From positions 1 through 25,629 of the IMG/VR virus record IMGVR_UViG_3300028829_000888: a stretch of DNA of 25,629 nt; one strand, given 5' to 3'. Under the pieces are notes generated by a model. The model was not told where the DNA came from, ran no database searches, and worked only from the letters and a program-made list of their open reading frames with translations. Position 1 is the first letter of the stretch, and each line of letters begins with the position of its first letter. Both the position numbers and the translations under genes were made by a program. Positions 1 through 19,033 of the stretch are shown piece after piece. The DNA comes from a virus.

Positions 1-3000
1 CTCTCCGTTCCTGTCTTGAAGACAAGTCCAACCTCGAACGGAATTGGTATCTTTACTCCACCAACTATCCAGTTCTGATCTCGCTCTGCTTCTGTGGCGT
101 TCTTGTACTCTTCATCATCCTTGGAAATCAAAGTGTATGCGAGGGTTGCCGCAGCAATTTGTCCACCTCGGGCAAGGAAAGAAGCTAGTGCGTTATTCTC
201 CCCGTCCCTGTTAGACTTGTACCGCCCCCTAATGGCTCTGTACATGACATCCAAGCCCTGCATTCTCGCGTTCAAGAACGGAACCGCAGGCATGATAAGA
301 CTGATCAGCGCAGAGTTACCTCTTCTGGAGAAGTTGAGAGTCTCCATCGCTTGGAAGATAGCCTCGGACTCTGCCTCTGATCGACTAACGCCCTTGCTGA
401 GTAGCGTTTGCAGGGTGTCTTCGTATATTACTTGCCGAGTTGCCGCATCTGATTTCTGAGATGCTTCCCCAAGGCTATCCCACAGCTTTGCGAAAGGAGC
501 CGACACTGTGTCTATGCTTCCTTTCTTAGCCCCCATCCCTTCTCTTCTGAGTTTCTTCCTGAAGTTCTGCTCAAACTTCTTAGGCTCAAACACATAGTCA
601 TAACCACCAACCACACCAGAGTTTTCTAGTATGCTGTAGCTATCACTTTCATTCCCTCTTATGTCTGAGCTGAACTTCTTCATCGTGTCGATGATCGGAG
701 TCATGTTCGCTCCAGAAGTTACCCATACAGACATGGAGTCTCTCAGTAAGTTCCTAAGGATAAACGTGGGGCTTCTAGCGACTGACTCCCTGAGGAAGTT
801 GGCTGGCGCAGTGAAGAACGGGCTAACACTTACTCGACCCTGGCTAAACCCAGTCAGTGTGTCGATCAGTAGCCTATCGGTTGTGGTGAAATACTTCTCC
901 TCACCACCAACTCTCACCGTGTAGGCAGCGGGATCAACTACCCCCTTATCATCTGCGAAGACCTCTGTAGCGAACCCTGCATCCACAGCATCTATCATGA
1001 CCCTTTGCGCCGCTAGGTTCTTAGTACCAGCGGTGACTGCTGCGCGGAGATTCTGCATGATACCCGTGAGGGGATCAGTTAGTTGCATATCTCCACCCTT
1101 GTACTTCTTGGGCTGGCTCTGGTCCGTCAGTGTCGGGAATAATTCTTTGAGTCTTGAGTTCTTCCCAAGAGAAAGGTCTATGCCCTCTTCTCTGAGTATA
1201 TCCTTAAACACTTCGGGTGTTACGCCTTCACCGTCAGCATCTCCGTCAAGATCCATGTTTCTGTAGAAGGGTATGTAGTCACCATACTTCTTGAACACCA
1301 CCGCAAGCTCTTCACTCACGACACCACTATCTCTCATGAAGTTTACGAGAGAATCATTCCACTGCTCGTAATCGTTACTCACTTGCTCAAACATAGGAAG
1401 AAGACCTCTCTTCTCTATGTTGCTGTTGATAGTTTGTATCTCACCTGTTGTGAGATTCGTTAGCTTCCCTGATTTAATCAGCCTTCCCGCACGGTTAGCG
1501 ACCATCCAAGTCGCCCAATCCCTGTACAGATATTCGTCCTTCTCGAATAAAGGACTAAGGGCCTGCCGGAGACTCTTCTTAGTTGGGTCAATCCTCGCGA
1601 TCCCCCCTCTAAGTACAATCGCTCCGTTGTTAATCGCTGCGGAAACAACGCTGTTCGCTCTGTCTGCGAGAAGAGCTAGAGAAGCTGCATTTGTAGATGC
1701 TAGAAGTTCTCTGTCATCTTTCTTACGCAGTCCAGCTTCCTTTGTTACTTTTTCCAAGTAATCGTACTGGTTTAGATACTTGATCCTAAACCTAGCCATC
1801 CACTCTTTTCGTTTTTCTGTGTCGAAGAGAGCGTCTGTGATCGACTGGAATAGGGTCTTGTCGTTAGGCGCAGCGAAAAGCTGAGAGACTATATCCTGAA
1901 AGGGTCTATCCTTTCGGCGCTCTTGCCTGTTGACTTTATCCTGATTAGCCGGTGAAAGCCTTTGAGGCTCTACCGTTCCCTCAGCAATAGCGACAGCCCT
2001 CTGACTTACCTCGTCTTCCCTACCTCTCGCGTTATCGTTAACGCGAGGGATCTTATAAGAGTTCCCAGCACTGCCCTGGTTAGGTGCGGTGAGGGTTGAG
2101 TTTTCCTTCAGTCGTATGCCAGAGCCTCCCCCGACCCCTGTGTTTGCTATTTCGATCCTATCCCCATACGGGCTCTTAGGGTTGGGGTTCCATTCCCAAA
2201 CTGCACCAACACTGTCGTAAGTAAGAGTCCCTGCAACCTCCTCCGCATTCACCTTTCGTGTTATCAGCGCATCTTTAGCTCCGTATAGGCCAGAGATTCC
2301 AGTTTCGTAGCCAAGCCCCTCCGCTTCCATCGAAAGTTTTATGTCTGAGGCTTTCACTACAAACACAGCCACCTCGTTAGAGCCTTCGCCTCCCGCTGGG
2401 CCTACATAGATTCCGGGTTCACTAATAGAAGATTGAACAAGAGAACCGTCTTCTCTTACAGTGAGGCGACCCAAATTACTGTCCCGAGAAGCGATTGACC
2501 CGTCTACACCTTCTTCGACGAACTTGTCTAGCCAATTCCGAGTAGTTTTATGCTCCACCACTACTAGATCATCTCCGCGTGGGTGAGTCTCTGGGGAGAA
2601 TGGCTTTCTTTCTCTATCAGGGGGCATGGATAGTTCAACGGGAATAGCAGACAGCCTCTCGCCTTCTGCGGATACAGGCTCAGACTTTCGAGACATATCG
2701 AACTGAGTTGATTTATCAGTTTCAGTTATGTCCAAGCTGTAGTTAAGATCTTTCGCAACCTTCCTGATGCCGCGCTCGTATATCCTCGACCTAGCCCCTT
2801 TGCCTCCTTCAGTCTTTGAAGATGCGAAAATAATATTACCGGGTCTTTTCTGGATAATAAAGTCTCTAAGTATATCTCTTATTGTTCCCAGAACTCGCAA
2901 GGCTCCGAACTTCTCTTCCCCTGTAATGCCGAACGCCTCAGGGGAGGCTCCACCCCTACCTTCCGCCTGGAATGAGATATACCAAACACCTCTATCGTTA

Positions 3001-6000
3001 TCTGAATTAAACTGATATCTAACACCGTTGTCAGAAACGAACATAGATTCAAAGCTAAGATTATCATTCTCTGTAACCTTGTATCCGTATGGTCTGTCGA
3101 ATGCTAGTCGCTCAGACTCTGAGAATCTTTCAGCATCTAAGTCTTCTGTTCTAGCGTCACTCGATTTTCTCTTCGCTTGTCTTCGCCTTGTCTTTATGTC
3201 AGACCAGTCCGCTACAGCCCATTCCGCTGGCTTGGAGGTGCTGGTGATGCTTCTGTTCAAAGCACCCTCATCTACTAATACAAACTCTCCGTTAGCTCTT
3301 TGTCCCCAATTCCTGAACGCAGTGAAATCGTTCCATAACAAGTCGTAGTTGAGGAAGCCATCGAGCCCCATCGCATCCATTGCATTTTGAAGATCTGTAG
3401 TCTTATCTTCAAAGTCTTTGGGTGAGAAATTCTTGAGCGGCTTAAGGAATCTCCTTGTCTCTTTGTCATTCCTTGGAACATTCTCAGTTACTACATAATC
3501 TTTCCCGGCTTCAAACATCTCTGGAAGAGCGGATCCCACTATCCCTTTATCGCCGAACCCCATGCTCGCGTTTTGTTCCAGACCTCTTGGGTTCTTAGCG
3601 ACCTTAAGTACTCGGTTCCCAATGACGTAGACATCTCTGGTCGTGCCACCAGGGAGCTTCTTCATGCCTGACACGTCTATCTTGTCAGCAAGTATTGTTT
3701 CAGGAACGTCGCCTTCGCTGAAAGCAGCACTAAATCTTTCAGCCTCTGGCGGGTCTGTTCTAACATCGGCGTTCGCGTCAACAGGGTCTCGGCCTAGCTC
3801 AGCTCTTGTCTCAGGGTCAGTGGGGGTATCGGAAACCACTGACTCCGCCACGGCTTGACCAGCCACTTCTTCTTCTGCTTCTTCTTCAACTTCTATCGCT
3901 TGAGATACGAGGGGATTGCGATCAACTTGTATAGTGCGAACCTCTCCAGCCTCTCTCGCTTGGATCTTCTTCATGCCGGAGATTGCGTCAGCAGCAGTGA
4001 CAAAGCCTGCACCGCTCATGGCGTTGTACAGCTTCTCCATGAAGATAGCCATTCGCTCTATTAGCGTTCTTGGCTGGCCTGCTATCTGTCTTCTTACCTC
4101 AGGCACGCTGTAATACTGCCGGTACATCTCAGCAACAGCTTCTTCTAAGACGTACTCAGTGTTGTTGCCTGCGTAGTCCTGCGATGCTTGATCGAAGAAT
4201 GTGACACCATTCCTGTTCTTAACTCTATACGCAGAAGTGGATAGAACATTCCATTCTTGCATAGTGAACAGGTCAAGATCTCTCATGGCATGAACGATCT
4301 CATGATCCATAATAGATGCTACAGCTATTCTTATTTCTTCTGCTGTGTTAGCGTCTTTGATCTGATCCAAGCTGATGGCAATTCTTCTGAATCCATCATC
4401 GTTTGGACTGTAAGATCCTTCGCCTGATCTGACTTCTCCGTCAGTACCTACAGCCTCGATCTTACTCATCACAGTGCCGATGAGAGCCTTGTTTAAGTTG
4501 GCTTCCTTCAGCTTGTTTTCTATAACCTTGAGAACTTCTTCACCCTTAGCTCGACTGCCTTCGGGTATTTCCTTTAGAACCTTCTCTCTTTTAGATATCT
4601 CAGTAGGTCTACTGGGAGCTGAAAGAACTTCGCCCTGTAAAACATCGGCAAAAGAAGGCGGTCGGAACTGTCTACCCTCGTCATCGAATAACTGCTGGAG
4701 TTCTGCCCTCTTGGTTTTCCCTACCTCGTCAGCCTTCTTGTCCCAGTTAGATGCACCCGGCATCATCTCTTTGGCAAACTCAAACTCAACAGAACTTGCG
4801 GTTTTTACATCCGGAGCAAAAGAGATCTCAGTTACCTTGGGTCTTTTGGGTCCGAAAGACTCACCAGTTTCTATTAGCTCCCCTGTTTCTCTGTCCTTTA
4901 CCTTGAGGCCCGGAGATAAGAACTGGCGAACTGCGAACCCTTCGCTTTTACTATTATCAACAGAGAAGGAGCCTTCCATCAGCTCTGGGGTAACACCTGT
5001 GTAGTCTGGGGAACCGGAGGCTCTTCCCTGTGCGGTCATGGCCCCTTTTGAAACTTGTATAATCGCATTTAACTTTCGTTTTGTTCCGTATGTAGGATTC
5101 CCAGTTGCTTGATCTACGATCTTATACTTAGCTCTGTTTTCATTTAGGAAATTAGCTTCTTTATTTGCTTCCGCTTTTGACGTAGCACCACCAACGATCT
5201 GACCGTTCTCATCCCTGATGAAGTAGCCATTCGCACCAACAACCTCAGTCACTGTGTTTCCTGCGGTTAACCGACGCTTGATCTCTTCCTGCTGACCTTT
5301 GCTCGTCCGTATCACGGGCCTTCCGTCTGGCCCTACAACGGGTTCAAGGTTCCCACCCTGTTCAGCAGCATCTTCACTGAACGCTGCTCTGAATACTAAA
5401 GGAGCAAACTCGCCATCACTCATAGATAATGATTGTCTCTGAGGCATGTCGCCTCTCACTACCGCATCATCCAAGAAAGACTCAAAGTTATTTTGACCAA
5501 AGCGACCAGTGATCTGCTCATAGTCTCTAAGGTTTATAGACCCATCCTTGTAAGCTCTTTCCATCAAGTCTCGGTACTGACTCTCTGTGTACTTGGGTTT
5601 CCTAGCCTTCACATTGCCGTTCTTATCTTCAACGGCATATCCTTTTATCTTCATTTCTTCTATGATTGATGAAGCAATATCGTTTGAGCTTTCAGAATCA
5701 GTGAAGTCTACGAGATTCCCTGTGCCCTTTGCCTTGGAGAAGAACTTCTCGTGTAGCTTCTTCCTGACCACCTCAGGCGTAATCCTTGATCCGCTCTTCA
5801 GCCCCTTGATTACGGACTCAACCTCTTCGGACGTAAACGAGGGGACGCTGACACCTTCTTCAGTGTCGGCATCGTAGTAGTCCTGAATGGTGAACCCTGT
5901 GAGGATCGTTCGCATGGCGCGAAGCGCATCCTGATCAGCCTCGTTGATGTCATTGGTCTGACCATTGGTGGTTCTATACACGAAAGCCTTAAAAGCTTTG

Positions 6001-7316
6001 TCATCTGTCTTAATGTTTCTGGATTCAGCAGCCTCAAAAACATCATCAGCACTGAACTCGACAGAATCCTTAGCCTCTTGGACTCCCTGCTCAATTAGCC
6101 GCCTATTTTCTACGGATTCTCTGCCTGCTTCCTGAAATTTATTCTGTACTTCCTTTACATTCTGCTCGTACATTCGCATCGAGTTGTCGTACTCAGCCTG
6201 AACAGAGTTTTCTCGTCTCTTTTCGTAATCATTTCTAATTACTTTCTCTTCTTCAGAGAGCTTCTCCCAGTCCTTGTAAGCTTTTTTATTAGCTCTGTAA
6301 GACCTCTGGGTTCCGTAGGCTCCGAACGCACCAGCAACCGGAAGCGTACCGGCGACAGTTGCAATCATTTCCTCCACAAACTCTGCATCCTGAGGAGAAA
6401 TAGAAAGACCAGCTTGGGCTCTTTCTAGGATTGTCTGAACCATCTCCGTTGGAAACTCTACTGCTGATTCAGCGAAGCTTGCCTTTGCTGCTTGTCCCAG
6501 TGTTGGGAAAGCAGAGGCCTTCGCTGTTGCGCCCACGGCACCTAATGATTCCTTGAGCGATCTGGCTGCTGCGATCTGAGGCCCTCGTCCTATACCTCCA
6601 GAAAGAGCGATGACGATGTAGTCCATCCCCGCCTGAGGAGCAGCAGCGAGCGCAGCTCCGAACGAGTTGAGATCCTCTGGAGTGACTCTCTCATCTGGGT
6701 TTTCAGCTTGGGCAGTTTCGTACTGCCTTTGCATATTGTCCCCAAAGAATTGGAGCGCAAGAGTCCCTATGCCAGCAGCAGCACCAAGTCCGAACTTCAG
6801 CACGGAAGGAGGCACTGCGACAGCAGCAGTTCTGAGTAACGGGGTCGCCTTGGCGAGGTAGGAAGCGATACCCAATCCCGCATTCGTCGAGGCAACCTTG
6901 CCAGCAAACATGGAGGGTATCGTGTAGGGTAGTGTCTGGCCTATGGACTCAGCGGAGAACCTGTATGCGTCAGGTATTGCACCTAAGACACCATCTTCCT
7001 TGTAAGCTTCTATGACATCTTTATAGCTTGTCGCGGCAGGGAGAGCTTCCGAGGTTAGCCGGTTTACCTCTGCATATTCTCTACCGGCTTGATCGATAGC
7101 TTCTTGGCTGTCGAAAACATCGCCAAATAGAACATCAGGTATAGCCCCTAGAGAGCCTTTGAGTCTTTCGTATCCAGCAGAAAGACCAGACATGAACCCG
7201 CCAGTTCTCCTCTGGTACTCTTGGCGAACGTCCGCAAAAGAAGTGCCCTCCGGAAAAGTGACAGGTTCACCATCAATAACGACTCTGTATTCTTTCTCCA
7301 AAAACCCTTCAGCCAT
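1..7316 (-). CDS. Giant polyvalent phage protein, HExxH and kinase-like regions, C-terminus cut by window edge
   Basis: An unbroken frame runs from ATG at 7316 to the left edge, giving 2438 codons with no stop in the parts I translated. Visible in order: N-terminal IDGEPVTFPEGTSFADVR (14-31); Gly/Ala-rich hydrophobic stretches at about 135-190 and 312-335; a charged helical, coiled-coil-like stretch at 336-415; HEIVH at 1005-1009, an HExxH zinc-peptidase motif, with EYVLEE at 1054-1059 as possible third ligand; a kinase-like region at about 1215-1360 with VLKVAKN (Lys1238) and VLVDEG (Asp1349); an unknown domain at 1395-1540 with SRIYERG; and from 1840 a helical region containing FILRNLLRD (Asp2193), which resembles large polyvalent protein domain LPD38. 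Polyvalent proteins of this kind in phages and conjugative elements are thought to travel with the DNA. The gene follows the 522-residue gene after 2 nt. Enzymatic roles are inferred from short motifs only; a purely structural ejection protein is the alternative. Confidence 0.85.
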   Translation of the reverse strand, partial: MAEGFLEKEYRVVIDGEPVTFPEGTSFADVRQEYQRRTGGFMSGLSAGYERLKGSLGAIPDVLFGDVFDSQEAIDQAGREYAEVNRLTSEALPAATSYKDVIEAYKEDGVLGAIPDAYRFSAESIGQTLPYTIPSMFAGKVASTNAGLGIASYLAKATPLLRTAAVAVPPSVLKFGLGAAAGIGTLALQFFGDNMQRQYETAQAENPDERVTPEDLNSFGAALAAAPQAGMDYIVIALSGGIGRGPQIAAARSLKESLGAVGATAKASAFPTLGQAAKASFAESAVEFPTEMVQTILERAQAGLSISPQDAEFVEEMIATVAGTLPVAGAFGAYGTQRSYRANKKAYKDWEKLSEEEKVIRNDYEKRRENSVQAEYDNSMRMYEQNVKEVQNKFQEAGRESVENRRLIEQGVQEAKDSVEFSADDVFEAAESRNIKTDDKAFKAFVYRTTNGQTNDINEADQDALRAMRTILTGFTIQDYYDADTEEGVSVPSFTSEEVESVIKGLKSGSRITPEVVRKKLHEKFFSKAKGTGNLVDFTDSESSNDIASSIIEEMKIKGYAVEDKNGNVKARKPKYTESQYRDLMERAYKDGSINLRDYEQITGRFGQNNFESFLDDAVVRGDMPQRQSLSMSDGEFAPLVFRAAFSEDAAEQGGNLEPVVGPDGRPVIRTSKGQQEEIKRRLTAGNTVTEVVGANGYFIRDENGQIVGGATSKAEANKEANFLNENRAKYKIVDQATGNPTYGTKRKLNAIIQVSKGAMTAQGRASGSPDYTGVTPELMEGSFSVDNSKSEGFAVRQFLSPGLKVKDRETGELIETGESFGPKRPKVTEISFAPDVKTASSVEFEFAKEMMPGASNWDKKADEVGKTKRAELQQLFDDEGRQFRPPSFADVLQGEVLSAPSRPTEISKREKVLKEIPEGSRAKGEEVLKVIENKLKEANLNKALIGTVMSKIEAVGTDGEVRSGEGSYSPNDDGFRRIAISLDQIKDANTAEEIRIAVASIMDHEIVHAMRDLDLFTMQEWNVLSTSAYRVKNRNGVTFFDQASQDYAGNNTEYVLEEAVAEMYRQYYSVPEVRRQIAGQPRTLIERMAIFMEKLYNAMSGAGFVTAADAISGMKKIQAREAGEVRTIQVDRNPLVSQAIEVEEEAEEEVAGQAVAESVVSDTPTDPETRAELGRDPVDANADVRTDPPEAERFSAAFSEGDVPETILADKIDVSGMKKLPGGTTRDVYVIGNRVLKVAKNPRGLEQNASMGFGDKGIVGSALPEMFEAGKDYVVTENVPRNDKETRRFLKPLKNFSPKDFEDKTTDLQNAMDAMGLDGFLNYDLLWNDFTAFRNWGQRANGEFVLVDEGALNRSITSTSKPAEWAVADWSDIKTRRRQAKRKSSDARTEDLDAERFSESERLAFDRPYGYKVTENDNLSFESMFVSDNGVRYQFNSDNDRGVWYISFQAEGRGGASPEAFGITGEEKFGALRVLGTIRDILRDFIIQKRPGNIIFASSKTEGGKGARSRIYERGIRKVAKDLNYSLDITETDKSTQFDMSRKSEPVSAEGERLSAIPVELSMPPDRERKPFSPETHPRGDDLVVVEHKTTRNWLDKFVEEGVDGSIASRDSNLGRLTVREDGSLVQSSISEPGIYVGPAGGEGSNEVAVFVVKASDIKLSMEAEGLGYETGISGLYGAKDALITRKVNAEEVAGTLTYDSVGAVWEWNPNPKSPYGDRIEIANTGVGGGSGIRLKENSTLTAPNQGSAGNSYKIPRVNDNARGREDEVSQRAVAIAEGTVEPQRLSPANQDKVNRQERRKDRPFQDIVSQLFAAPNDKTLFQSITDALFDTEKRKEWMARFRIKYLNQYDYLEKVTKEAGLRKKDDRELLASTNAASLALLADRANSVVSAAINNGAIVLRGGIARIDPTKKSLRQALSPLFEKDEYLYRDWATWMVANRAGRLIKSGKLTNLTTGEIQTINSNIEKRGLLPMFEQVSNDYEQWNDSLVNFMRDSGVVSEELAVVFKKYGDYIPFYRNMDLDGDADGEGVTPEVFKDILREEGIDLSLGKNSRLKELFPTLTDQSQPKKYKGGDMQLTDPLTGIMQNLRAAVTAGTKNLAAQRVMIDAVDAGFATEVFADDKGVVDPAAYTVRVGGEEKYFTTTDRLLIDTLTGFSQGRVSVSPFFTAPANFLRESVARSPTFILRNLLRDSMSVWVTSGANMTPIIDTMKKFSSDIRGNESDSYSILENSGVVGGYDYVFEPKKFEQNFRKKLRREGMGAKKGSIDTVSAPFAKLWDSLGEASQKSDAATRQVIYEDTLQTLLSKGVSRSEAESEAIFQAMETLNFSRRGNSALISLIMPAVPFLNARMQGLDVMYRAIRGRYKSNRDGENNALASFLARGGQIAAATLAYTLISKDDEEYKNATEAERDQNWIVGGVKIPIPFEVGLVFKTGTE

Positions 7317-7318
7317 AA

Positions 7319-8887
7319 TTACCCAAACACCCTCGCCTGAAGTTCTGCTGATTCGTCACGGGAGCCTTCGGCAAATACCTGAAATAGTCTTTCTGTTCCG
7401 TAGGCTTTGAATATTTGCATTAATTGCGATCTCATGTTTTCGTAGTCTGGATCTCCGGGCATTTTACCAGTCCTCGATAGGTATTCATCTATCGCAGATG
7501 CGGCTTGGTTGTCGTTAAGACTTCCCCTACCTGTACCCGACTGATCGTTTCTTCTTATTTGAGATTCAACGAGTCTTTTATTCAGCTTCCGGTCCTCTAG
7601 GGAAACTTCTCTATTGAAATCCTTGTCGGCCCTGTCCTCTGCGCGAGCTTGTGAAGCTGTGTAAACCTTTAGTGCGTCTTGAATCCCAAGACCTATGCCC
7701 TCTCCGACATTTTCTTCACTAGCAACTCTTCCGCCTAGAGCAATTAGGGAGTTCCAGAATCCCTCACTTACAGGAACTTCGGCTCTCTCAGGATCTTCTA
7801 GAATGCTATCTATTCCACCATCACCTGATGGTTCCTCTTGGGCATTTGGATCGACCGGGAAAGGCGCTCCGAAGTTCTCGAACCCATCCTCACCGCCAGC
7901 CATAGAGGCGAGAGTGCCTGCTGCACCAGCACCTAGACCAGCTCTCAAAGCTTTATTTCTCGCAGATCCTCCAAGGATTTCTCTCCCAAGCTGAAGATCC
8001 CCAGCGAATCTGAAGTCTTTGGGGTCTGCCGATCTCACTGGTGCGAAATTTCCCGTAGGCTTCATGCCCGCTCTTCTACCTGCTGCTCCAACGACTGCTC
8101 GACCCCGATTTAACAAAGGCAGAACCCGAGGAACTAGGAGTTTCGCACCCGCGCTCAGTCCCCGTAAAGCTAGTCCACCGGGTAGCAAGCTCACTCCGGC
8201 ACCAAGCAAAGCAACCTTGCCCGGATTTTCTTCTGCCCATTGCATGATCTCACTTATTAATGAAGGATCTTCACCCGCAAGCTCTTCATCGTCATATATC
8301 GATCCGTACTCGTCACCGCCAAGGACTGATCCGCCATCTTGGTATTTCTGGATAAACCCACCAACATTGAGCGGCTGACTCCCGCCAGTCGCAGAGCGAG
8401 CCTGAGCTTCAGCCTCTTCCCTGCTCATACCTTGAGACATGAGATATTCTACGATCCCGAAATTAGACATATCAGGTTTTCGCATGAGGTCAGTCCCAAC
8501 CTGTCCCCCACCAGCCATCATCTGAGGAGGCATCTGTTGAGGCATCTGAGGCTGCTGCATGGGAGCCTGAGGCATCATTGAGCCAATACCTTGCTGCTGC
8601 GGAGGCATCTGGGGAGGCATCGCCTGAGCCATCTGAGGTGGCATAGGCGCAGGCTGTCCCATCATCTGCTGAGAGGCTGCTAGGAACTGGTCAACCATAG
8701 GAGGCTGCTCCACCCCTTGCTCTGCTTCTTCCGCCTTAGCTGCTTGCATTTGCTCACCACGACGCTTGATCTCGTCCATGCCAAGAAGCTGTGCGGCCTT
8801 GCCGGACTGCCCTTGAGCAACCTTCTGGACAGATCCCATGTCCAAGTTGCGGAGCATCTCTTGTAGTTCTAGTAAGTTAGAAGTCAT
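7319..8887 (-). CDS. Met/Pro/Gln-rich putative internal virion protein (522 aa)
   Basis: No enzymatic domain is recognised. The N-terminal 60 residues look helical and charged. Residues 60-125 are a low-complexity run of Met, Pro and Gln with repeated MPPQ and QMP units. MAGGGQV (124-130) and YQDGGSV (182-188) are short Gly-turn motifs also found in neighbouring proteins. Residues about 222-260 and 308-330 are Gly/Ala/Leu-rich and hydrophobic, and the C-terminal 130 residues are charged and probably helical. The start overlaps the previous stop by one base (TGATG), so translation is probably coupled. Proteins of this composition are common in marine phages between the tail genes and a giant protein, where they are taken to be virion or ejection proteins; that role is inferred from position and composition. 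Confidence 0.8.
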   Translation of the reverse strand: MTSNLLELQEMLRNLDMGSVQKVAQGQSGKAAQLLGMDEIKRRGEQMQAAKAEEAEQGVEQPPMVDQFLAASQQMMGQPAPMPPQMAQAMPPQMPPQQQGIGSMMPQAPMQQPQMPQQMPPQMMAGGGQVGTDLMRKPDMSNFGIVEYLMSQGMSREEAEAQARSATGGSQPLNVGGFIQKYQDGGSVLGGDEYGSIYDDEELAGEDPSLISEIMQWAEENPGKVALLGAGVSLLPGGLALRGLSAGAKLLVPRVLPLLNRGRAVVGAAGRRAGMKPTGNFAPVRSADPKDFRFAGDLQLGREILGGSARNKALRAGLGAGAAGTLASMAGGEDGFENFGAPFPVDPNAQEEPSGDGGIDSILEDPERAEVPVSEGFWNSLIALGGRVASEENVGEGIGLGIQDALKVYTASQARAEDRADKDFNREVSLEDRKLNKRLVESQIRRNDQSGTGRGSLNDNQAASAIDEYLSRTGKMPGDPDYENMRSQLMQIFKAYGTERLFQVFAEGSRDESAELQARVFG

Positions 8888-9819
8888 CAGTCTGCCCCTG
8901 CGCCTTGATAGTAAGATCCTAATGCGCCAGCACCTGCGATGCCTGCTCCTGCAATAAGCTGGCCAGTGGAAGGTCCGCCGCCAGATGTGCTTTGAGTTGT
9001 ATTCATCGCTGTAGCGTATGGAGTTCCAGAAAGGTTCGCGATATGTTGCCGAAGTTGGTTAGATCTAAAGTCTCTTCGTTCTATAAAGTCGCTGTAAGCT
9101 TGATCTCTGATTGCTTGCTCCATCTCCCTACCGCGAACACCGGCTTGCTGTAGAGCATTGATCCGCTCTAGGGCTTGAGTCTGTTGCATGGATGCAAGGT
9201 TTTGTAGTTGGGCTCCTGCATCCAGACCTATTCTGGCTCCTGCTTGCCTGTTCTGAACATCCTGTCCGAAAGCTTGCTGAGCTTGGTCGAATGCTCTGAA
9301 CCGAGTGTCGGATTCAAACTCTCGCATTGCCCTGAATGCTTCGTCTGAAACACGACCAGCCTCCCTGGCTCCCATCAGGGTCCCCCTACCACCCATCACG
9401 CCTGACTGTATGGCAGCATCGGAAGATCTCCTTCGGCTATCGCCCAGAGCGCCCTGATAATCGCGCATCATCCGAGATCGGCCTTGGTCGAGTACATTCT
9501 CAAGGTATGGATTCATGTACCGTTGAGCTTGATCAGGGAACTGAGGAGTGTTGAAGCCAATTCCAGAAGCTCTCTGGGCAATCCCTTGAGCTTGGCCTAG
9601 TTCTTGTCGAGGGCCAGCATCATAAAGAGACTGAACCCCTCGAAAAGCCTGACGCTCCATAGGGTTGAATCGAGCTATTCTCTGGCCTTCAAACGGTTGG
9701 TAAGGCTCTCTCGCTAAAGACCGGCTACTTGCTGCAATCCCTTCCCAGTATGGCTTAGACCAATCCGGTAAATCTTGGATGACTCTTTGAGTACCACCAC
9801 CACCACTACTACCGCCCAT
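8887..9819 (-). CDS. Helical putative internal virion or DNA-transfer protein (310 aa)
   Basis: The ATG at 9819 is chosen because GGAG at 9829-9826 lies six bases upstream; a TTG at 9831 would add four residues (MEIV). The protein begins with a Gly/Ser run, then QDLPDWSKPYWEG, and is mostly helical, rich in Gln, Arg and Ala, through the middle. MNPYLENVLDQ followed by an Arg-rich helix is a pattern I recognise from marine phage structural proteins. The last 30 residues are a Gly/Ala hydrophobic stretch (LIAGAGIAGAGALGSYY) that could insert in a membrane. It overlaps the upstream 911-residue gene by 11 nt. By position and composition it belongs with the internal or ejected virion proteins (analogous to, not visibly homologous to, T7 gp14-gp16). 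Function is inferred. Confidence 0.8.
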   Translation of the reverse strand: MGGSSGGGGTQRVIQDLPDWSKPYWEGIAASSRSLAREPYQPFEGQRIARFNPMERQAFRGVQSLYDAGPRQELGQAQGIAQRASGIGFNTPQFPDQAQRYMNPYLENVLDQGRSRMMRDYQGALGDSRRRSSDAAIQSGVMGGRGTLMGAREAGRVSDEAFRAMREFESDTRFRAFDQAQQAFGQDVQNRQAGARIGLDAGAQLQNLASMQQTQALERINALQQAGVRGREMEQAIRDQAYSDFIERRDFRSNQLRQHIANLSGTPYATAMNTTQSTSGGGPSTGQLIAGAGIAGAGALGSYYQGAGAD

Positions 9820-12544
9820 AACTATCTCCAATAATCCCAGACATTATTCCGTCGTTAAGCGGAGCAGGCTGCTCCACCGATCCTGTCTTTACTGTTCTGA
9901 CTTGATCTAATAATTGATAAAGCTTTGAGGCTCCGTTTTGATTATTCCCATCACCTAGATGAGAGACCACATCTGCGGGAACAACAAACTCCCCACTCGA
10001 AAGAGCGGCGGCGTTAGAGCCATCTATGCTTGCAGGTATCGTATCGTCCATCCCGCCTTCTGCTCCGCCGATGTATCCACCCCCAGCCATCGCATTAACG
10101 ATGCCACCAGCAAAACCTCCCGTACCCGGTATCACACCCGGACCTTCGTCTAGAGGGCCAGAGAGATTAAGAGATCCTCCGCCGCCTGATAAGTAATCTG
10201 GAAGATTGTACGCACCATAAGAATTGGAGTACGCAGACGGTATGGAAATGTTTTGATCGAATTGCTGACCCGAAGATCTGTTCTCGGATATTTCTTCTAT
10301 TCGGTCCATCATCGGCTTAAGGAGAACCTTGGAGAACCAAGCGAATTTTTTCAAGTTATCCTGACTCGTAATATCTGATTCCGATCCAACTGCACCAAGT
10401 CCATTATCACTAGCAAAGTCTCGAATAATAGAAGAGAAGCCATCCCACCCAGATTCCTCTGATCCCGCCATGAAATGCTCTGCGTCGAAGACATTACTGG
10501 GTGAACCTTCGTCGTAAGTTCCAATGTCGCTTAACTCATTCAAAAACACAGTGTCTAACGGAACTCCCGTTATATCAGAGTAGTTTTTAAGCTCTGTAAA
10601 CATTAACTGTTGTATTTCTTTATCTTCAAAAATGCTAAATTCCCAGGGGTTCCTAGCTTTATTAAGTATTCTACTAGCCCTACGGTTTTTTCCTGTTCGT
10701 TCAGGAAAGAAGGATGCTAGTTGTTCACTCTGCCATTCAGCATCTTTGGAGACTAAAGAAGTCGGGCTAATTTCTACAAGATTGGAAGGCTCATAATTAA
10801 TAGAATTAACATTTCTTAAGTCACCGACATAGAACGTCCGCATGACGGGCACCCGACGGCCAAAACTGCGACCCGTCCCGACGGTTCTTGTCCCGACCTG
10901 CCTTTTGGCAGTTGGAAGATTAAGACCGGGGAATAGATCAACCTCCGAGGTAAATATCGCTGGGTCATCCACCGTGTTGCTTCTATCCCAACCCGTCTGG
11001 AACTCCTGGGCTAAGTCCAATGTGGCATCTGGGCCGAAGTAACTACTGGCAATATCTTCAGGAGATCTAGCTATGTCTTGCGAAAGATTATAAATTCCAT
11101 CGCTTGTTACAGGTACATCTTCAGCGGTAATCCCATCATCTTGGATACCTCGGATACCTGTAGAGGGCGCTTCTCTCCAATCTGAATGCTCAACTCTTAT
11201 AACATCCCCATTTTCATCGACTATCTCAGCGCCTTCGCTAGTCAGGACTCTCCTTTCGCCATCCCTTAGAGCAGGTACAAAGCTTTCAGAAGCTTCGTCA
11301 TAGACAAAAGGATGTTTCTTCTCTGTGTCCCAAGAAGCATATTCCGTTCCCGGAGTATCTGAAGTATCTGAAGTATCTGAAGTGTCTGAAGTGTCTGAAG
11401 TATCTTCGCCTGGATACTCGTACTGATCCCTGACAACAATTATGTCGTTGCCTTCAAACCTCAAGACCCTTCCTTCATTATCAACAAATTCGTTTTCTGC
11501 GAGGTACGGAACAGGGTTTCCTGTCTCATCTCTCATATATGGACGCTCTTCTCCTACATCGTCGCTATAGTAGAAAACTTCATCCAAGCTCCCTAACCCA
11601 CCTTGTCCACCTTGTCCACCTTGTCCACCTTGTCCACCCGGCCCTCCCGGTCCTCCCGGTCCTCCACCCGAAAGCCAGCTCACTAAAGCAGCCGGATTAC
11701 TTGCCAATCCTGCTGCCTCATCGGCAGTGATTTCTCCAGCGGAAACAAAATCAGAAAGCAAATTCATCGAGTTTCTAATCAGATCATCCTGACTCATGTT
11801 GACATTGATCTGGTCGGCATCGCTTAGTGCTGCTTGAAACTTAAACTGATCTCCGTATTGGTCCCAGATCCCAGCCTGAGTGTTAAGCTCTTCAGTTAAG
11901 GCATTGAAAAGCTGTGGGTCATATTGCCTCATAGCTGCTAGGTAATCTGGTATCGATGAAAACCCTTGGCTATCAGCTTCAAGTTGAAAGTTTGAGATGT
12001 AATCTTGAGCCGTTTGAACGAGGTTCATCTCGTCCCCAGACAACATTGTTCCTTCGTAATCAACGGGAGTTCTAAACTCCGCTTCAGACCAGTCTTGCCT
12101 AAAAGGATTTCTTTCTGTTGGGCCGTAAATAGCTTCGATACCTTCAGGGACACCCACTTGTTCAGGGCTTAAAAATCGATAGCTTTGATCTACCGCAGAT
12201 GCGTAGTCGTAACTGAATGGGTCTTGATCTGTGAAATCCCTGGCAAGAATTTCATTCCCCGTTCTGTAAACTCGCCCGCGATGAGTAATATAATTTCTGT
12301 CTTGTGAGTTTTGGTCGATACCAGCCTGCGTAGGAGTCGCAGGAACTGTATTGAGTTCAGCGATCCCGCCTCCAGTCTGCGGAAGGTACTCGCTAAAATC
12401 TAAGTCTAGACCTGAAGTGTCGAAATCAGTGTCTGCTGATTCAAGACTGACCCCTTCGTTACCTTGGAGATTTTGATCTCCAGATGCATCTTCAACATTG
12501 ATGTTGTCTTCATCGTTATTTTGCGTGTAAATTGCTGATGACAT
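9809..12544 (-). CDS. Large acidic, low-complexity virion protein with a conserved C-terminal phage domain (911 aa)
   Basis: The first half is acidic and low in recognisable motifs. A run of GGP and GGQ triplets at residues about 293-314 and DTS repeats at about 380-396 are probably flexible linkers. The last 90 residues hold a pattern I know from marine phage structural proteins: GGYIGG, then GGMDDTIPASIDG, then LSSGEFVVPADVVSHLGDG (848-866), then a helix ending VRTVKTG. I do not know a proven function for this domain. The start has AGGT upstream and lies 12 nt after the 435-residue gene. Its length and position suggest a virion component of the tail tip or of the ejected set. The two repeat tracts are encoded by near-perfect 9-nt DNA repeats, so length variants are to be expected. 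Confidence 0.82.
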   Translation of the reverse strand: MSSAIYTQNNDEDNINVEDASGDQNLQGNEGVSLESADTDFDTSGLDLDFSEYLPQTGGGIAELNTVPATPTQAGIDQNSQDRNYITHRGRVYRTGNEILARDFTDQDPFSYDYASAVDQSYRFLSPEQVGVPEGIEAIYGPTERNPFRQDWSEAEFRTPVDYEGTMLSGDEMNLVQTAQDYISNFQLEADSQGFSSIPDYLAAMRQYDPQLFNALTEELNTQAGIWDQYGDQFKFQAALSDADQINVNMSQDDLIRNSMNLLSDFVSAGEITADEAAGLASNPAALVSWLSGGGPGGPGGPGGQGGQGGQGGQGGLGSLDEVFYYSDDVGEERPYMRDETGNPVPYLAENEFVDNEGRVLRFEGNDIIVVRDQYEYPGEDTSDTSDTSDTSDTSDTPGTEYASWDTEKKHPFVYDEASESFVPALRDGERRVLTSEGAEIVDENGDVIRVEHSDWREAPSTGIRGIQDDGITAEDVPVTSDGIYNLSQDIARSPEDIASSYFGPDATLDLAQEFQTGWDRSNTVDDPAIFTSEVDLFPGLNLPTAKRQVGTRTVGTGRSFGRRVPVMRTFYVGDLRNVNSINYEPSNLVEISPTSLVSKDAEWQSEQLASFFPERTGKNRRASRILNKARNPWEFSIFEDKEIQQLMFTELKNYSDITGVPLDTVFLNELSDIGTYDEGSPSNVFDAEHFMAGSEESGWDGFSSIIRDFASDNGLGAVGSESDITSQDNLKKFAWFSKVLLKPMMDRIEEISENRSSGQQFDQNISIPSAYSNSYGAYNLPDYLSGGGGSLNLSGPLDEGPGVIPGTGGFAGGIVNAMAGGGYIGGAEGGMDDTIPASIDGSNAAALSSGEFVVPADVVSHLGDGNNQNGASKLYQLLDQVRTVKTGSVEQPAPLNDGIMSGIIGDSYGR
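11355..11405. repeat. 9-nt tandem repeats coding for DTS units
   Basis: Five copies of GTATCTGAA or GTGTCTGAA plus a partial copy, in frame in the 911-residue gene. They encode alternating Asp, Thr and Ser, probably a flexible linker. Confidence 0.88.
11602..11664. repeat. 9-nt tandem repeats coding for GGP/GGQ triplets
   Basis: Four copies of CTTGTCCAC followed by three copies of a CCGG(C/T)CCTC unit, seven 9-mers in all. They encode Gly-Gly-Gln and Gly-Gly-Pro triplets in the 911-residue protein, a collagen-like or simply flexible tract. Confidence 0.88.
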
Positions 12545-17161: not shown

Positions 17162-19033
17162 CTATTTCCAAGCTTTGATCTGGAGTTCCCAGTTAATGTC
17201 GCTGTCTAGGAACTGTTGGCCGTTTGCGCCTGTCAGGTCTCGCTCAATAATTTGGATTCTACCAGCACCAATCGACCACCTAATGTTAGTGTTGTCAGCA
17301 GAAATGCTGATGCCACGGTTGTTGTCGCCTTGGGAATAAGAAAGATAAACAACATCTCCTTGGGTGTACCCAAACTGGTCAGACACGCAAAGTGCTTGCA
17401 ATGTTATGAGGCGAGGAGGCCCACCGAACCCATGCGGGACCGGACCACCGTCTGTGTTTGCCAGAACAGAGCCTCCAGTAATCTCAAGGTAAGCACCTTG
17501 ACCACTTACCATGCCCGCGTGGTAAGGCTGACCCCATGCGTCTCCAATTTTGTTCTTTATGCCCAACACATTAGATGATCCATCGCTACCTCTTATCCCG
17601 AACCCGTTCACTCCGTAGGCAGTGTTCATGTTAAGGTACTGACCACCAGAAGAGAGAAGAGCGATCCCCTCTTGGTTAACACTAGCCTGTACAACAGAAT
17701 TGTTAGAACTGTTTTTTGTCTTGAACTTTATAGCTCCATTAGCGGCAGCAGGGTTTGTAGTTTCTAGCAGCAGTGGACCAGAGGATGTGGTGAGAGAAAT
17801 CGCGCTTCCGGATCCGGTGTCTATAAAGCTTGACGACAAGTCGAGCCTCTGTAAAAAGCCGGGAGAGATAGACAACGCTGATGTAGAAGTGAGTAAAGGA
17901 GTTGCCACACTGGAACTGCCGACTAGGTTAGATCCCTCAATATTTCCAGTGCCTGTTATAGTGGGAGATGATAAAGTCTTTTGTGATAAAGTTTGGATAC
18001 CTGTTGTTCTGACAACGGTGCTATCCACTGCAACTGAAGGCGAAGCACTGGTTCCGTTAGCTACAGTTATACCGTCTCCACCGGTTACGCTGGTAACATT
18101 CCCCGCTGTTCCCGGTGGTATCCATTGCAATCCTCCGCCACCCGATTGAGCGGAGAGGATGTACCCGTTTTGGGGTAGATTACTTACTTTTAACTTCGGC
18201 TCCGAAACAGCGTCATTCGCGATATTAACTTCTGAAACAGCGTTATTAGCAAGAGTGGTGGCGGTGTTGAAGCTTCCGCTACTCGTTACAGCTCCTGTTA
18301 GCGCAGGGATTGTTGTGACAGTGGCCGCAGTGCCTGTTGTGTTTTGGTTCCATGTGGGCTCGTCCCCGCCCATCTTTGAATAAGATATTCCAGCGGTATT
18401 GCTTATATCAGCATTGACAATAACCCCAGCTTTAATACGAACTGTATTTGGAGAAGTTGTTTCTATATCGCCCGAGAGGGGGGCGTTTATTGCCGTGGAC
18501 CCAGAGCTGCCTGTAACATTACCTGTAACATTACCTGTAACATTACCTGTAACATTACCTGTGATAGTTCCCGACGAGATCAATGTATCGACAGAGAGAT
18601 TGGCAAGACTGTTCACGACATTAGTGCCATCGATGTGGATAACCGCAGAGTAGCCGTTTGGAATGGTGACATTAGTTCCAGCACCGCAAGATATAACTAG
18701 ATTACTCGTTCCGGAGAGGCTATTTACCGCAGTAAATCTGGCGTGGGCACGAGGGTTGCCTCCAACCTTAAGTGTCACCGTGTGAGTTGAATTGGAGGGA
18801 TCGCCTGTCCATTTAATTACGGAAGACCTTCCCTTAGAGTCAGTAGAGTACGCAGTTGACGCATCTGGTATGTCCAGATCTGCCGCAGCGCCGGTAACTG
18901 CAATCTCGGCGTAACGAGAAATACCCTCCTCTAACGCTCGGAGGTTATTGTTTGTGACATCACCCCATGACCCAGCTTTGTCGCCAGCGCCAATAAGTTC
19001 TACCCCGAGTCCTTCGGTATAATCAGAAGCCAT
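17162..19033 (-). CDS. Tail fibre / receptor-binding protein (623 aa)
   Basis: The N-terminus contains LGVELIGAGDKAGSWGDVTN followed by NNLRALEEGISRY, a typical phage tail-fibre attachment segment. The central part is a Ser/Thr/Gly/Asn-rich beta-repeat shaft: GNVTG repeats at 159-175, then ADISNTAGISYSKM, NNAVSEVNIANDAVSEPKLK and LSQKTLSSPTITGTGNIEGS, all characteristic of trimeric fibres. The last 140 residues (from about 485) are more complex, with PRLITLQALCVSDQFGYTQGD and W-containing strands, and probably form the receptor-binding head. It would bind the host surface. The start overlaps the upstream stop (TAATG). A four-fold 12-nt DNA repeat encodes the NVTG run. The role is well supported by composition, N-terminal motif and neighbours; the receptor cannot be told. 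Confidence 0.88.
   Translation of the reverse strand: MASDYTEGLGVELIGAGDKAGSWGDVTNNNLRALEEGISRYAEIAVTGAAADLDIPDASTAYSTDSKGRSSVIKWTGDPSNSTHTVTLKVGGNPRAHARFTAVNSLSGTSNLVISCGAGTNVTIPNGYSAVIHIDGTNVVNSLANLSVDTLISSGTITGNVTGNVTGNVTGNVTGSSGSTAINAPLSGDIETTSPNTVRIKAGVIVNADISNTAGISYSKMGGDEPTWNQNTTGTAATVTTIPALTGAVTSSGSFNTATTLANNAVSEVNIANDAVSEPKLKVSNLPQNGYILSAQSGGGGLQWIPPGTAGNVTSVTGGDGITVANGTSASPSVAVDSTVVRTTGIQTLSQKTLSSPTITGTGNIEGSNLVGSSSVATPLLTSTSALSISPGFLQRLDLSSSFIDTGSGSAISLTTSSGPLLLETTNPAAANGAIKFKTKNSSNNSVVQASVNQEGIALLSSGGQYLNMNTAYGVNGFGIRGSDGSSNVLGIKNKIGDAWGQPYHAGMVSGQGAYLEITGGSVLANTDGGPVPHGFGGPPRLITLQALCVSDQFGYTQGDVVYLSYSQGDNNRGISISADNTNIRWSIGAGRIQIIERDLTGANGQQFLDSDINWELQIKAWK
18510..18557. repeat. 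Four perfect 12-nt tandem repeats inside the tail fibre gene
   Basis: The unit CCTGTAACATTA occurs four times in a row and a fifth copy begins at 18558. It encodes the NVTG run at residues 159-175 of the fibre. As the unit is a multiple of three, gain or loss of copies changes shaft length without a frameshift. Confidence 0.9.

Follow-up and report, generated by a model that had tools for sequence, protein, structure and literature searches.

Polyvalent proteins have been described by Iyer et al. (2017; PMC5512222), in whose account zincins, kinases and GNATs are recurrent domains, ARTs also occur, and the zincins are regarded as the likely processors: it was proposed that polyvalent proteins are cut into working units by their own zincins. 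The MPTases of these proteins comprise a small beta sheet, a helix bearing HExxH and, after it, another helix that contains a glutamate, and another of the domains, LPD38, has been described as phage-only (PMC5512222). The virion RNA polymerase of N4, which is giant and includes an MPTase domain, is packaged unprocessed (PMC5512222). In Burkholderia phage JC1, the 4515-aa protein gp69 has been found in virions by mass spectrometry (51 unique peptides), and its gene is the last of the morphogenesis module, followed by two small reverse-strand genes and lysis (PMC9144972).

Here, we analyse a giant protein encoded by a 25.6-kb IMG/VR virus record, a single contig, which at its full length of 25,629 nucleotides is called the window. 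The protein belongs to the phage polyvalent proteins already described: several unrelated enzymes lie in one chain with a zincin as hub and LPD38 at the end, and the gene has a phage structural neighbourhood (PMC5512222). The initial annotation had read it in the same way, and the zincin signature, the kinase and GNAT folds and the LPD38 end support that reading. That annotation also found the domain order unfamiliar; the order was not seen in any of the relatives examined here either, which sets the window protein apart from the polyvalent proteins described. The phage is probably podovirus-like and the protein one of its internal virion ("ejection") proteins, of the polyvalent kind, in which a fixed chassis carries variable enzyme cassettes. 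The undescribed part is a short motif at the cassette borders, of which we found no description in the open-access literature, including the main text of Iyer et al.

The giant frame (Table 1) is stop-free over all of its 2438 codons as far as base 3. That it is still open at the edge of the window had been recognized before, and its strand is the minus one. A complete collinear homolog of 2839 aa (P0002) is encoded on L002, an independent contig from another metagenome, with 50% identity over residues 1–1231 and 57% over residues 1768–2438 of the window protein, and with no detectable similarity between residues 1231 and 1768. Because this homolog is collinear and in one frame, the giant frame is considered intact, contrary to the undetected frameshift that the initial annotation had allowed for. 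The homolog also indicates that about 260 C-terminal residues, holding the rest of LPD38, are missing from the window protein.

Table 1. Features of the giant gene and its neighbours in the window.
Feature	Position	Strand	Basis or remark
Giant polyvalent protein ORF, 2438 aa	3..7316	-	ATG at 7316; open at contig edge
N-terminal chassis, residues 1-345	6282..7316	-	Gly/Ala-rich, moderately hydrophobic
Charged, probably helical stretch, residues 341-425 (coiled coil of the initial annotation)	6042..6296	-	sequence
Chassis region, residues 426-905	4602..6041	-	kept among close relatives
Zincin-like metallopeptidase, residues 906-1170	3807..4601	-	alignment, model
Linker 1, AERFS (R1194)	3729..3743	-	sequence
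35-nt direct repeat copy 2, at linker 1	3733..3767	+	74% identity
Kinase-like cassette, residues 1206-1390	3147..3701	-	relatives, model, Foldseek
Linker 2, AERFS (R1397)	3120..3134	-	sequence
35-nt direct repeat copy 1, at linker 2	3124..3158	+	74% identity
GNAT-fold (DUF6934-like) cassette, residues 1409-1545	2682..3092	-	weak profile match, model
Linker 3, GERLS (R1554)	2649..2663	-	sequence
Third cassette, residues 1557-1783	1968..2648	-	low-confidence model
Linker 4, PQRLS (R1786)	1953..1967	-	sequence
C-terminal chassis, residues 1850-2400	117..1769	-	at least 580 IMG/VR stretches contain relatives
LPD38 start (PF18857), residues 2401-2435	12..116	-	cut by contig edge
522-aa gene between ejection and giant genes	7319..8887	-	ORF end 2 bp before giant ATG
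DNA ejection protein family neighbour (phrog_4287)	8887..9831	-	profile match, E 1e-12

The N-terminal chassis is the best conserved part, with 72–78% identity to the L002 homolog over residues 151–350. The hydrophobic stretches noted earlier in this region are present but moderate: the best 19-residue Kyte–Doolittle mean is 1.44 and none exceeds 1.6, so that they are not clear transmembrane helices. At the other end, the presumed LPD38-like region is indeed there. Its first 35 residues match with an E-value of 0.0056, which lies below the Pfam cut-off because the domain is truncated at the contig edge, and in the L002 homolog the whole domain is found (E 2.4e-33).

The HExxH site, likewise pointed out before, is H1005-E1006-x-x-H1009 (bases 4290–4304). 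These three residues are invariant in 44 aligned relatives, as are E1058/E1059, the candidate glutamates for the third ligand. An AlphaFold2 model of the zincin (mean pLDDT 78, core above 90) shows the layout described for polyvalent MPTases, with strands, one helix bearing HExxH and one bearing the glutamate. Foldseek matched this zincin-like model to LPD-annotated viral models (E 6.6e-5), and a comparison with solved structures gave nothing significant (anthrax lethal factor, E 1.8), a point against the overall reading. Among the 62 members of the family that exceed 2300 aa, 58 have the domain.

The kinase-like region of the initial annotation corresponds to the first cassette, whose key residues are G1224, K1238, E1278, D1330, N1336 and D1349. 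Residues 1230–1383 share 60% identity, over 154 aa, with a cassette of the phage contig L160, residues 1206–1387 are 36% identical to L112, and the same kinase core is held by 106 phage contigs. The kinase group of polyvalent proteins is characterized by retained active-site residues, a reduced C-terminal lobe and a distinctive conserved glutamine. In 52 aligned relatives of the cassette the active-site residues are kept, with the G-loop, the VLK lysine, the catalytic D and DxG conserved, and a glutamine, that of AKNxxGxxQN, is invariant. A profile search found the effector kinase SteC (E 0.017), and the model matched Rio2, APH(2'') and other kinases in Foldseek with probabilities up to 0.99 and E-values from 4e-3. 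The proteins with this core, VLK[IV]AKNxxGxxQN, form a family of mostly small phage proteins, often of 210–260 aa, in more than 100 viral contigs (L089–L194).

The "unknown domain" of the initial annotation corresponds to two cassettes. Residues 1409–1545 have a weak match to DUF6934, which at E 8e-5 does not reach the Pfam cut-off; their model, with pLDDT mostly 86–95, matches RimJ and SpeG with a Foldseek probability of 1.00 and an E-value of 3.9e-3. The Foldseek E-values for both the kinase and the GNAT folds are thus about 4e-3 and not below 1e-3, though the probabilities are high. On the basis of the model, residues 1409–1545 have a GNAT fold and are predicted to be a GNAT-like acetyltransferase; in L010 three related copies of such a domain stand in a row. 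Residues 1557–1783 found no relative by tblastn, and the confidence of their model is low. A pattern in this third cassette, LVVVEHKTT...GIYVGP, prompted its comparison with ARTs, but profile comparison gave a probability of 0.4%, and tblastn, pattern search and the model likewise lent no support to such an identity. As for the possibility, raised by the initial annotation, that structure prediction would yield only helical rods, kinase and GNAT folds and a zincin-like model were obtained instead.

Throughout the family the chassis is conserved, whereas the block that lies between zincin and C-terminal region is not. This is seen most clearly in a pair of sister phages, L009 and L010: their DNA shows 96.1% identity as far as AGA-TTT-TC within an R-F-S linker; homology is then undetectable over about 2.1–2.3 kb and is back (87–89%) some 6 residues after a later R-F-S linker. 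The intervening part encodes a GHKL ATPase (HATPase_c_3, E 5e-10) and a second metallopeptidase-like stretch in L009, and repeated GNAT-like domains in L010. The GHKL/HSP90-type ATPase cassette and the extra HExxH stretch of L009 occupy residues 292–985 of its protein. Elsewhere in the family the block contains ART-PolyVal (up to E 5e-49), DUF7178, GP88 or others, or an annotated methylase region. The fixed chassis thus consists of the N-terminal part, the zincin and the C-terminal part; what lies between, the enzyme block, is replaced as a whole, and whole enzyme blocks are exchanged between phages at the linkers. The L009/L010 pair is a natural experiment in such cassette exchange at linker borders. 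This linker-bounded exchange suggests a modular kit of proteins that are injected with the phage DNA.

What marks the borders is a short peptide. Every cassette border of the window protein has an R[FL]S (R1194, R1397, R1554 and R1786), and three [DE].?R[FL]S sites lie in the block, where 0.13 are expected (P 3e-4), with none outside it; the residue that follows R[FL]S is A, E or P, whereas L, I or V is usual in the family. Among 54 non-redundant relatives, [RK][FYL]S[LIV] was observed 117 times in the block (12.7 ± 3.7 expected), twice in the N-terminal chassis (6.7 expected) and once in the C-terminal chassis (10.7 expected), the expectations being derived from shuffles within regions and the counts in the conserved C-terminal regions not being independent. 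In the same relatives the longer form [RK][FYL]SL[RKS] occurs 75 times in the block against 1.0 expected and nowhere outside it. The strict motif has 61 sites, compared with 0–12 for its non-overlapping permutations. Segments shared between proteins end no more than 10 residues away from 106 of the 133 motif sites, compared with 42 ± 5 (maximum 62) in 1000 rotations. The motif is missing from 13 of the 54 non-redundant proteins even under a looser pattern. Many bacteria have prophage proteins with borders similar to the linkers, NPDIR[FY]S. Of the linker arrays seen, the most regular was that of L227, a Phycisphaerales MAG, where a 1414-aa frame has nine R[FL]S sites, several of them alternating with ART domains (RFSIAPLV ... 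NPDIRFSV).

Among the 133 sites there are 101 different 12-mers, and nearly every synonymous codon is in use, which argues that selection acts on the peptide and not on the DNA. Among the motif codons, AGC for Ser and TAC for Tyr are over-used. A recombination signal at the DNA level as the sole cause of the motif is ruled out by this variety of 12-mers and codons.

How would such a protein work? The fixed chassis, made up of the N-terminal part, the zincin and the C-terminal LPD38 region, carries a variable cassette block, which in the window protein comprises a kinase-like enzyme, a predicted GNAT-like acetyltransferase and a third unit, with the linker core [RK]-[FYL]-S between them. Judging from relatives and gene order, synthesis of the giant protein would be late, and packaging and then ejection together with the DNA would follow; the cassettes, to judge from their fold class, would then modify host proteins. 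The linker marks the unit of exchange, and a peptidase, possibly the protein's own zincin, might cut the linkers and free the cassettes. Tentatively, the linker may be taken as a putative processing site, perhaps for the zincin, because it is conserved at the peptide level, is depleted in the chassis and lies in a probably flexible location (linkers 1 and 3 clearly fall in low-confidence stretches of the model, linkers 2 and 4 less so), and because nearly all members have a zincin and those with the motif group together on the zincin tree (7 changes, compared with 17 in shuffles). The fuller proposal, that [RK]-[FYL]-S-[LIV] is a dedicated processing site, cut after packaging or injection and most likely by the chassis zincin, so that the enzymes are set free to act separately, and that the same linkers define the swap units, is one we hold to be somewhat doubtful. 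Some members have a zincin and no motif, the block of the giant protein of Vibrio phage VvAW1 among them contains none, and some prophage frames, e.g., L210 and L215, carry the motif and show no HExxH; processing by the zincin in cis is weakened by these cases, and a strict cis link between motif and zincin fails as a rule. The clustering on the zincin tree, too, could come from descent alone. To our knowledge, no defined cut sites are known for polyvalent proteins. The border motif gives specific candidates, namely the four arginines of the window protein and the corresponding sites in dozens of relatives, and it allows effector cassettes to be read from sequence, even those without a known fold.

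The same polyvalent protein may also have a linker that is never cut, a flexible spacer or cap that tolerates any cassette and is kept because new cassettes bring their linkers along through duplication and recombination; the chance of this we put not far short of even. Simple descent would account for the clustering just mentioned, and the linkers of the window lie in direct DNA repeats (35 nt, 74%) spaced 609 nt apart, which is the kinase cassette, as do those of L002 (67 nt, 94%, plus a 24-nt third copy), pointing to duplication of the linker when a cassette is added. Around ART-PolyVal domains the motif lies about 7–9 residues after and 20–24 residues before the domain, and the fixed distance of 7–9 residues from the C-terminal end, found in many members, is what an inherited tail would show; however, of the 61 sites with the strict motif, 43 fall outside the class of ART tails. 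The varied codons also speak against an uncut spacer, since the peptide has been kept rather than the DNA, and depletion in the chassis is left unexplained by a neutral spacer, though the conserved C-terminal counts are not independent.

With either fate of the linker, the polyvalent protein that we favour would act from within the virion, and its gene lies amid virion structural genes. The neighbouring DNA ejection protein, upstream of which tail and head families are encoded, has homologs in at least 38 loci with giant-protein relatives, a lower bound because many loci are cut off upstream. In Vibrio phage VvAW1 the order is the same as in the window: a DNA ejection gene, one gene, and the giant protein, which is annotated as DarB-like. 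The ejection neighbour, the VvAW1 gene order and the C-terminal chassis shared with that phage support a role in the virion and in ejection, and by analogy the giant protein would be packaged and enter the host with the DNA. Some other products of the window were also seen, all on the minus strand. A 911-aa protein (9809–12544) has a C-terminal stretch, MDDTIPA..GEFVVPADVVSHLGDGNNQNGASKLYQLLD, that is almost unchanged in its L002 homolog, the rest having diverged. A 623-aa fibre-like protein (17162–19033) contains a run of GNVT repeats (GNVTGNVTGNVTGNVTGS). Between 21783 and 23735 five adjacent short ORFs (119–152 aa), several of which share a similar C-terminal stretch and two of which are weakly alike (E about 1e-3), suggest a diverged tandem array, perhaps of decoration or fibre proteins.

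Virion and ejection proteins as neighbours would equally suit a protein that stays whole as a structural or DNA-ejection part of the virion, its enzyme folds being degenerate or acting on virion proteins only, and the unprocessed packaging of N4 virion RNA polymerase, MPTase included, is a precedent for it. This is unlikely, as the catalytic residues of both zincin and kinase are intact and conserved, and exchange among enzymes as unrelated as a kinase, a GNAT, a GHKL ATPase, an ART and an annotated methylase fits effectors and not a structural part. That the frame is an assembly chimera or a frameshifted set of unrelated ORFs is most improbable: the window is one contig only and is cut at the 3′ end of the giant gene, but the collinear homolog exists in another metagenome and the kinase cassette is in-frame with its close match to L160.

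Placed among the known giant proteins, the polyvalent effector carrier that we favour resembles the one of podovirus VvAW1, with which it shares a homologous C-terminal region, an HExxH just upstream of it and the gene order by the ejection gene, but the VvAW1 block is different (annotated methylase or DarB-like) and is without the linker motif. Gp69 of JC1, a DarB-like protein of another podovirus, is likened to it by the comparable place of its gene. Like N4 virion RNA polymerase, the window protein is giant and has an MPTase domain; in contrast to N4, no RNA polymerase domain was found. In MARTX toxins a single giant polypeptide carries effector cassettes, and a protease within it performs autoprocessing. 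They are a functional analogue, for which we claim no sequence relation: their protease is a cysteine protease, whereas the peptidase here is a zincin, and scans of the window protein against Pfam and NCBIfam found no cysteine protease domain or RTX repeat family. Delivery here, unlike that of MARTX, would be by the phage virion. If the linkers are indeed processed, the family would be a plug-in platform for effector delivery comparable to MARTX, with a readable code at its borders.
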